Source: Pocillopora verrucosa (taxonomy: Eukaryota > Cnidaria > Anthozoa > Scleractinia > Pocilloporidae). From it: DNA of 64,000 nucleotides. The notes under the pieces were generated by a model. That model searched no databases and was not told the DNA's origin. It saw only the letters and a program-made list of their open reading frames with translations. Shown piece by piece: positions 18,334 to 29,605 of this stretch (its first letter is position 1; every line of letters begins with the position of its first letter). The position numbers were made by a program, and so were the translations under genes. The stretch lies in contig NC_089318.1 of assembly GCF_036669915.1 (NCBI RefSeq), forward strand, positions 19,920,405 to 19,984,404. Reading direction: 5' to 3'.

Positions 18334-21261
18334 CTAACGGCCACTGGTTTCTTCATCCCAGAGTGTGATGTATTGATCCGCTCGCAGTTGTTCTACTCCT
18401 GTCAGTCCTTCCTCCGGGTACTCTGCGTCGACACCGTATCCAGTTATGTACACCTTGGTGTCTGAAGGCTGCAAAAAATAGAAGATAATGTTTAGAGTCG
18501 GGGAATGGTCAACACAGTCACAGCCTAACTACAAACTTTCTACTTGAAGGTAGCTAATGTGGATGTGTTGGTAGTTAGTATCGATAAGAGATAATGCCTC
18601 TCTCGGTTTTCAGTTGTCACGCCACATTCCAAACCTTTTACCGGTACTTAGGATTTTGTTGAGAAAGCGAATATTGGACATAGACATAACCTAGTTTCTT
18701 CCAGCACCACCGCTGGAATCGTCCATTTGGACCGTCCAACTCGGAGGCTAGCACAAAGGGAAATGATCGACTAGTTTTACATCTCAGAAATCGACGGGAA
18801 TTGCGTACAATTTAGTCGACAAAGTAGTACCAGGTTGTGCCTCAGGAAACCTTTCGCATATGTAGCGAATTTATTCTGGTTTTCACACTTTTGAAGAATT
18901 CATAAAGATAGAGTCATGGTTCAAAGTGTTCAGAGTCACTGAGCAAAAATGAGACTTTACTTCAAACTGAAGGTAATTTTACATTTTCTCTCAATCGTGG
19001 AGTCAAAGTATCACTCGACACGGCACAATATATCACGAGTTGTTCTGGACAAGACTCGCAAATATGATACTGCAACACGTCTTCACCACCACGCCTCAGG
19101 ATAAGATTCGTCTCATCCTTGTACCCAGTATCACGACTATTTTTGGAGCAAACTAGTGAAGTTTAATCGGTTCAAATCAAGGTAAGGTTTTATTTTAAAT
19201 GTTTTGACGAAGAGTGAGGCAAATATGAAAAAAAATATCTTCGTTGACACTAAGACGCAGTGGTAAAAATACTATTGTTGTGTAAACATTAAAAGCTTAC
19301 GTAACTTAGAAACAGAACAAAACAAAAAAAAGTTAAAAAGCTAAAAGTCGCTTACCTGAATTCTCTGAACGTATTCAACAACCTCTGCAAACTAAAACAA
19401 GAGAGAATTGGTTAATGGAAGTCGGTGGATAAGCTTTTTATGATCACAGTAAGCTCAAAGACCTCTTGAAGTTGGTCTCTCCTCAAGCACAAACCTAGCA
19501 TACGCGAGCACAACAAGGTAACTGATGGGAACGTGATTTATTCTCTTATCTCCTTAATTGCATCAGTTGCGCCGCTGAGCGGCCTAAACTAAAAGCAACA
19601 ACTAAATCTAAAGACATACCTTGAACGATTTCTACAGATTCTGCTTACATCGGTTATACGGCTTTGTATTAAAGTTCACCAACTTAACTGTACAAGATCC
19701 ATGTTGTTCAGGTGGAGAGTTTTCAGTTAAGAACAGACCAGTGTATATATAACTAAATTTTTGCCGTTTCATGGTTTCTATTTAGATAATTATAACTTTA
19801 TTTTGTACGCCTGAAAATTAAGTACCCACCGAAGCGTGTTCCTCAGTGCCCTTGTCCCTCGCATCAACAATCACGGTGGAGGCCTGGAAGAAGAACTCGA
19901 ACACGTCCTCTCTGAAGCCAGAGTCTACGCAGTAACCAAGAATTGGTTCCTCTTTGAAGTAGAGCACAAATCCTATGGAAAAGAACTTAAAGTGAAAACT
20001 CTGTCTCGTTTGCTTTCAGACTTGAAATATCAAATATGAAAAGTGGGTTTGACTATCAGAAGTGAGCGACATTTTAAAATAAAAACTTATTTCGCTTGTA
20101 ATTCACCGGCTGACATTTAAATTCCTTCCAGCTTAATTCTATCCCGGAATGGAGAGAATTAAGCTGGTCTTGCCTAACAGTACAACACTATGACCTAACC
20201 CACTTCTCAAAAGGGAACCGTTGATTCTAAAGCGTGACTTAGACCTCCATGTCTTCAGCCACCTTGTATCAAAACATACTATTACTGTCTTGTCGACACA
20301 AACGATTATTCTGATAAACGTTCAAGCCTACCATAGCAGATTTCGCTATGAAGCGTCTTGTAAGTTTTGATAAAAAACTGTTTATCATCATCCAAGTAGG
20401 TTGGACTTCCATCTTGTTCACACGCCAGCCAGTCTGCAACTTGTTCCTGCACGGAAGAACAAAAAAAAACACGTTTTAACTGCTATGTTTCATACGTTGC
20501 TTCAACTTGGCTGATGTAACAGACAATTCCTCCCGAGAGTGGGCTATAACTTACTTACTTAACCCTTACACCAGAATTTAAACGCATTAATTTATTTAGA
20601 TAGATATCACTGTGGTCGGTATTTGATGTTCTTTGTTCGCGACTGGTTTTGTAAAAGGCATGCTCTTGCAATATTAACACCGATGAATGATTCAAGCATG
20701 AAACATCTAACACAGAACCAATTAGACATGTTACAAGGAAGCAGGTCTCCTATAATTTTTTTCCACCGAAGAAAAAAGTCACAAAGAATAATCAGTTTGA
20801 TTAATGTCACTCCATTTGTGCAAGTTACCTTTGTTTGCATCATACTCGAAAGAGTGTAAGAGTGACCTATGACTTACTGGTGTATATAGACTGAGCATCT
20901 CGTCCAATCTGTGTGTCTTCAGTTTTTGTTGCACCTCTGGGCCTGACAGCACCCTCAAGCGAGGTTCGCCAGCCAAATATCTCCGCTTGCTCTCGAATAC
21001 GAAGAGCAAAGGCAGTTCACCAGCATGATCCAGGTGGTTGTGTGTGATAAAAACATTCCTTGGGAACTCGTTGTAAGCTGGGAATGCAATAAAAGGGTGT
21101 CTAAAAAAGCACGGACAAATCAAGGAAGAAGGATAGAGAATTTTACTGACCAAGTCTCTCCCTACAAGCTTTGACGACACCGGCTCCAACATCCGCCATA
21201 AGCAAAGGTTTCCCTTTGTGAAATACAATTGCAGAGGAGCTTGGCTGGCCATGAAGGACGG
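18334..21261 (-). other. Metallo-beta-lactamase fold domain of copy B (exons 15-20)
   Basis: Residues about 824-1069. All ligand motifs can be read: THNHLDH (HxHxDH; H873, H875, D877, H878), LHSEICYG (H960, motif III), YCVDSG (D982, motif IV) and TEEHASF (H1011, motif V). The order and the H...YG...DSG spacing resemble the RNase Z / Lactamase_B_2 branch more than glyoxalase II. Such enzymes use two metal ions, usually zinc, to cut phosphodiester or other bonds. The substrate cannot be read from the sequence. In copy A motif II reads TNNHLDH and VIVDAR is VIVGAR. Confidence 0.85.

Positions 21262-29605: not shown

Follow-up and report, generated by a model that had tools for sequence, protein, structure and literature searches.

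A predicted four-part coral protein combining a SIR2-like module, a Raf-like kinase and a metallo-beta-lactamase domain

We analysed a 64,000-nucleotide stretch of the genome of the coral Pocillopora verrucosa, hereafter the window (C7:19920405-19984404 of a 353 Mb assembly comprising 52 contigs). On its minus strand, between positions 29605 and 18334, we found a gene of 20 exons, termed copy A, which very probably encodes a single protein of 1069 residues followed by a stop codon. The predicted chain consists of a SIR2-like module, a middle region, a protein kinase (residues 547-793) and a metallo-beta-lactamase (MBL) domain, in this order. A tandem paralogue, copy B, is located in the same window (Table 1).

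The exons of copy A were assembled by hand from GT/AG sites, with the end coordinates and the totals known beforehand but not the exon list. GT/AG borders are present at 19/19 introns and the phases of all exons are compatible. This rebuild agreed with a first-pass annotation of the DNA in the number of exons (20), in the absence of phase conflicts and in the number of residues (1069). Two candidate exons were rejected during modelling: an additional one between exons 1 and 2, where the open stretch at ~29215-29109 has no well-placed phase 0 acceptor and no conserved block, and an alternative last exon at ~19153, whose frame is short and lacks a counterpart block in copy B.

Copy B was modelled using copy A as a guide, with exons 1, 2 and 20 differing slightly in length between the copies. 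A nucleotide comparison of both gene regions, which made no use of a gene model, yielded 21 colinear conserved blocks, 20 of which each overlap one exon, the remaining block being non-exonic. The copy A model is therefore more than a chance assembly, given the colinearity of copy B and the coincidence of the conserved blocks with the exons. A 38 bp block common to both copies is found at 21491-21528 within intron 14; it is non-coding in the model and unexplained. Intron 5 of copy B contains, in antisense orientation, the frames of a LINE (long interspersed nuclear element)-like element (10742-12735, plus strand), with a match to the RVT_1 reverse transcriptase model (E 2e-30) in 11305-12735.

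Most differences between the two copies affect the third base of a codon (342, compared with 161 at the first and 113 at the second). Taken exon by exon, this excess reaches nominal significance (P < 0.05) in 15 of 20 cases, the exceptions being exons 3, 7, 12, 19 and 20. For the SIR2 part, the ratio of nonsynonymous to synonymous substitution rates (dN/dS) was 0.19; the corresponding values were 0.185 (middle region), 0.163 (kinase) and 0.171 (MBL), and each 95% bootstrap interval lies below 0.28. All four parts are under purifying selection. A 13-residue hinge between the kinase and the MBL gave a dN/dS of 0.29, a value based on only eight substitutions. The synonymous rate (dS) varies more between parts (SIR2 1.08, middle 0.77, kinase 0.42, MBL 0.66), which could result from gene conversion across the kinase exons. 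In copy B, exon 11 of the kinase contains one in-frame TGA, and two MBL motifs are changed (HNHLDH to NNHLDH and VDARD to VGARS). We regard the stop and the two altered MBL motif residues (7500-7498, 4871-4869 and 4100-4098, minus strand) as apparent signs of decay.

The kinase and the MBL are joined in exon 14. This exon encodes both the end of the kinase (CLKPEKSRPEM, aligning with B-Raf) and the first strand of the MBL (VELYCVGTGTG, aligning with the phage Apyc1 structure 7T28). The division into exons 1-9, 10-14 and 15-20 drawn by the first-pass annotation consequently shifts at its last boundary, the MBL beginning in exon 14 rather than 15. Its broader proposal of one protein with a SIR2-like, kinase and MBL order is strengthened by this shared exon, the colinear paralogue and the similar purifying selection on all parts, and is weaker at the link between SIR2 and kinase, where no exon is shared.

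The kinase matched the Pkinase model with an E-value of 2e-54 and 185 bits (cut-off 31.7), and the expectation that every catalytic motif would be present held: copy A has the G-loop (GEGSFG, 549), the VAVK Lys (K569), the helix C Glu (E586), HRD (HRDVKPEN, 661), DFG (682) and APE (706). Among the best 60 of 692 matches to solved structures, B-Raf ranked first (E 3e-32), followed by AMPK, RSK and ULK. By these features, copy A is predicted to contain an intact, TKL/Raf-like kinase.

The N-terminal part belongs to the SIR2-like group, as had been proposed: the SIR2_2 model (PF13289) matched residues 96-220 of copy A (E 4.8e-9, 36.9/40.2 bits) and scored 34.1 bits in copy B, above the curated cut-off of 24.5 in both. 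A scan of the genome itself with PF13289 gave 0 matches, a result that is uninformative since the domain is split over exons. With copy A alone as query, the nearest solved chain was KomC (22.2 bits); human FAM118B rose from 17.5 bits for this single-sequence query to 21.9 bits for a profile of both copies. The catalytic Asn is retained (Asn101 of TTNMD, aligned with the TTN of FAM118B and KomC). In contrast, neither alignment places a His at the SIR2 catalytic position, which reads KCFGD in copy A and KCLGD in copy B. Phe144 of copy A and a Leu of copy B lie opposite the catalytic His146 of KomC, a residue marked by PDB entry 9xvc, named KomC(H146N). The FAM118B alignment as printed is one column off, with the HG-motif His opposite Gly145; this His is 43 residues from the TTN Asn, the distance between H206 and N163. 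The GAGxS NAD-binding loop is also altered, to GEQVS in copy A and GEQMS in copy B, compared to GAGVS in KomC and GTGIS in FAM118B, in N-terminal sub-alignments that are not significant alone.

In FAM118B, H206A or N163A is reported to stop the NAD-processing activity, and for DSR2 the double mutant N133A/H171A was used as an inactive control (PMC10973363). Given these mutants, the missing catalytic His and the GEQxS loop make an NADase role unlikely, and the SIR2 part of copy A is probably not an NADase; nucleotide binding by its pocket is still possible. The idea that this module acts as the NAD+-depleting effector in a sensor-switch-effector scheme is therefore not supported by its active-site residues.

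For the MBL, the Lactamase_B_2 model covered residues 869-1027 with 18.4 bits in the whole protein and 22.8 bits for the part alone, under the cut-off of 27. Of the three domain types that profile searches had been expected to recover, SIR2_2 and the kinase thus exceed their cut-offs and the MBL does not. Weak matches to RNase Z and cyclic-nucleotide phosphodiesterases were obtained, and the scores for the NCBIfam Apyc1/RNase Z equivalogs were 33.4 bits against a cut-off of 400 and 34.8 against 252. The nearest solved chain, Bsp38 Apyc1 (7T28; PMC9117128), matched over the length of the domain with 25.5 bits, sharing HxHxDH and most ligand positions. Metal and catalytic positions retained in copy A are D847, H873/H875/D877/H878 (HNHLDH, 873-878), H960, D982 and H1011. 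At the C-terminal ligand His, where 7T28 has LMHYG, copy A reads ITGYG; the residue concerned, Gly1035, is a Gly in copy B as well, and no His is encoded anywhere in exon 20. The MBL does not have "all five metal motifs", as first described, nor the complete ligand set of class II phosphodiesterases and RNase Z, which includes this His. The absence of the last ligand weakens the case for a hydrolase.

Between SIR2 and kinase, the middle region (residues ~259-540, ~280 residues) is as constrained as the other parts. Searches of PDB, NCBIfam and PADLOC gave no match to it, and its Pfam matches were at chance level (best E 0.12); outside SIR2, kinase-like and MBL models, no other Pfam domain was found at E <= 1 in the copy A protein. 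PADLOC gave no strong antiphage match for the SIR2 and MBL parts either, the best being E 0.0071 for SIR2, with none for the MBL. A six-frame search of the whole assembly with the MBL, middle and SIR2 parts as queries, in which only the best candidates were scored, returned matches to copies A and B only (10, 8 and 10). Genome contigs, viral contigs and phages were scanned with two short peptide patterns per query, for which a miss is weak evidence. Pattern matches in genome and viral contigs numbered 155 and 35 for the middle region and 60 and 54 for the MBL, with 63 in viral contigs for SIR2, and contained no relative; phages gave one 40% match to the MBL (67/263 residues) in an unannotated cyanophage record.

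Several observations weigh against a single chain and would fit two adjacent genes taken as one, the former comprising SIR2 and the middle region and the latter the kinase and the MBL. SIR2 and kinase have no exon in common, their link resting on colinearity and phase. In both copies the reading frame of exon 10 continues upstream without a stop, through the acceptor, to an ATG (24420 in copy A, 8496 in copy B), which may represent a separate kinase start. Sequence conservation at exons 10 and 11 extends into the flanking introns, by ~100 bp at most, and AATAAA motifs occur inside the gene. On the other hand, the phases join throughout in copy A and equally in copy B. The two ATGs, 27 and 33 bases upstream of exon 10, are at non-equivalent places, both apparently in the pyrimidine-rich stretch before the CAG acceptor, and we read them as probable chance occurrences. 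Moreover, from exon 5 to exon 11 the comparison of the copies revealed, besides the exons, no separate conserved block that could serve as a last exon for SIR2. Two separate genes are, in our assessment, quite unlikely.

With copy A taken as one gene, we tentatively favour a signalling protein in which a pseudoenzyme with a nucleotide pocket gates the kinase and a phosphodiesterase-like tail follows it. This proposal combines the colinear gene and its paralogue, purifying selection, the kinase motifs, the missing SIR2 His and the loss of one MBL ligand. The protein, presumably cytosolic, would consist of a SIR2_2-type module that no longer performs NADase chemistry, the middle region, a TKL/Raf-like kinase and an MBL of the RNase Z/class II phosphodiesterase kind. 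The degenerate SIR2 pocket and the middle region may bind a nucleotide-like, NAD-related ligand and/or oligomerise, which would bring kinase domains together and turn the kinase on. The MBL could bind or slowly hydrolyse a phosphodiester or nucleotide ligand, tuning or ending the signal, and the output would be phosphorylation, not NAD+ depletion. Several points speak against this proposal. As the damage in copy B demonstrates, loss is tolerated. Sensing and oligomerisation are guesses, since the middle region could be assigned to no family. The MBL scores do not reach the Pfam cut-offs and miss those of NCBIfam (252 and 400) by a wide margin, and the pattern scans found no relative outside the coral's own genome. 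Its closest rival, possible although more doubtful, makes the kinase the sole enzyme, with the SIR2-like and MBL parts as pseudoenzyme scaffolds for partner binding or self-assembly. The absent SIR2 His and altered GAG loop, the Gly at the last MBL ligand in both copies and the complete kinase motifs all agree with such scaffolds, but copy A keeps D847, HNHLDH, H960, D982 and H1011, beyond the needs of a bare scaffold. A bolder version, which we think unlikely, describes a one-chain eukaryotic receptor kinase built from antiphage-type parts, whose SIR2 pocket would be the nucleotide sensor, the kinase the output and an Apyc1-like phosphodiesterase the eraser of the sensed signal. That copy A is likewise no longer expressed or functional, as part of a decaying family, could be argued from the kinase stop and altered MBL residues of copy B and from the finding of only two copies in 353 Mb; this appears improbable in view of a frame open over 20 exons, the intact splice sites at 19/19 introns and a dN/dS well under 1. 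Three active enzymes with NAD+ depletion as the effector step would accord with SIR2_2 scores above cut-off in both copies and the retained Asn of TTNMD, yet Phe or Leu at the KomC catalytic His, the change of GAGxS to GEQxS and the reported inactivity of the FAM118B H206A and DSR2 N133A/H171A mutants leave this highly improbable.

Copy A shares the SIR2_2 domain and TTN.D with FAM118A/FAM118B and the antiphage SIR2_2 NADases KomC, ThsA and DSR2, the alignments being to KomC and FAM118B only; it differs from this group by Phe/Leu at the KomC catalytic His, by GEQxS in place of GAGxS and by fusion to a kinase and an MBL. A large multidomain signalling protein of animals with a variant SIR2-like domain is already described in the SAMD9 family, members of which are reported from Cnidaria. 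The architecture given for SAMD9 (AlbA_2, STAND-like NTPase, TPR and OB-fold) contains no kinase or MBL (PMC5445408). Compared to Apyc1, class II phosphodiesterases and RNase Z, the MBL described here has Gly at its last ligand position, is C-terminal in a fusion and scores far below the family cut-offs. The kinase has the catalytic motifs of Raf/TKL-like kinases and is distinguished from them by its SIR2-like and MBL partners. In line with the earlier statement that no described protein has all three domains in this order, a literature search did not find the architecture; protein databases and animal proteomes were outside its scope, and a database entry with it may well exist. As far as searched, the combination is new, its single parts being of known kinds except for the middle region.

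If expressed, the protein would unite a eukaryotic kinase with two domain types familiar mainly from bacterial conflict systems, its SIR2 part having been turned to a non-catalytic use. Such a protein would offer a test case for how NAD-pocket domains can be reused, not as toxins but to sense a signal ahead of a kinase, and its middle region would represent a novel domain for structure determination.

Table 1 Positions of the copy A exons, of copy B and of the open frames preceding exon 10
Feature	Position	Strand	Content
Exon 1	29426..29605	-	Residues 1-60, with start codon and N-terminal SIR2-like part; FVGEQVS at 31-37; conserved in copy B
Exon 2	28624..28815	-	SIR2-like, residues 61-124; TTNMD with Asn101
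Exon 3	28017..28106	-	SIR2-like, residues 125-154; KCFGD, Phe144 at KomC catalytic His
Exon 4	27597..27761	-	SIR2-like, residues 155-209; SVLFLGCD
Exon 5	27331..27477	-	End of SIR2-like region, residues 210-258
Exon 6	26930..27116	-	Middle region, without family match
Exon 7	26321..26391	-	Middle region
Exon 8	25943..26234	-	Middle region
Exon 9	25142..25374	-	Middle region
Exon 10	24179..24393	-	Junction segment and kinase N-lobe: GEGSFG, Lys569, Glu586
Exon 11	23349..23586	-	Kinase, HRDVKPEN
Exon 12	22929..23094	-	Kinase, DFG and APE
Exon 13	22219..22325	-	Kinase C-lobe
Exon 14	21751..21937	-	End of the kinase together with the first strand of the MBL (VELYCVGTGTGTT)
Exon 15	21151..21261	-	MBL, ADVGAG
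Exon 16	20878..21077	-	MBL, HNHLDH metal motif
Exon 17	20332..20446	-	MBL, His960
Exon 18	19830..19972	-	MBL, Asp982 and His1011
Exon 19	19356..19391	-	MBL
Exon 20	18334..18468	-	MBL end and stop codon; ITGYG at expected last ligand His
Copy B, tandem paralogue	3130..15674	-	20 exons, order and phases as in copy A
Open frame with ATG upstream of exon 10, copy A	24420-24394	-	ATG 27 bases upstream
Open frame with ATG upstream of exon 10, copy B	8496-8464	-	ATG 33 bases upstream

Other features were noted elsewhere in the window. On the same strand as copy A and ~10 kb upstream of it, two frames at 39603-41319 (minus strand) match both ends of PF10021, the catalytic domain of microbial-type PARG (E 4e-14 and 9e-12), marking an ADP-ribose-related gene. 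A GIY-YIG-like frame at 37427-38110 (minus strand), slightly below the Pfam cut-off, is close to repeats at 37166-37337 and 40247-40557 and is possibly a mobile element. Further along, a cysteine-rich frame of 519 codons (60934-62490, minus strand) has no Pfam match at E 0.01, and a BTB-BACK-PHR gene occupies a single long frame at 57572-58981 on the plus strand.
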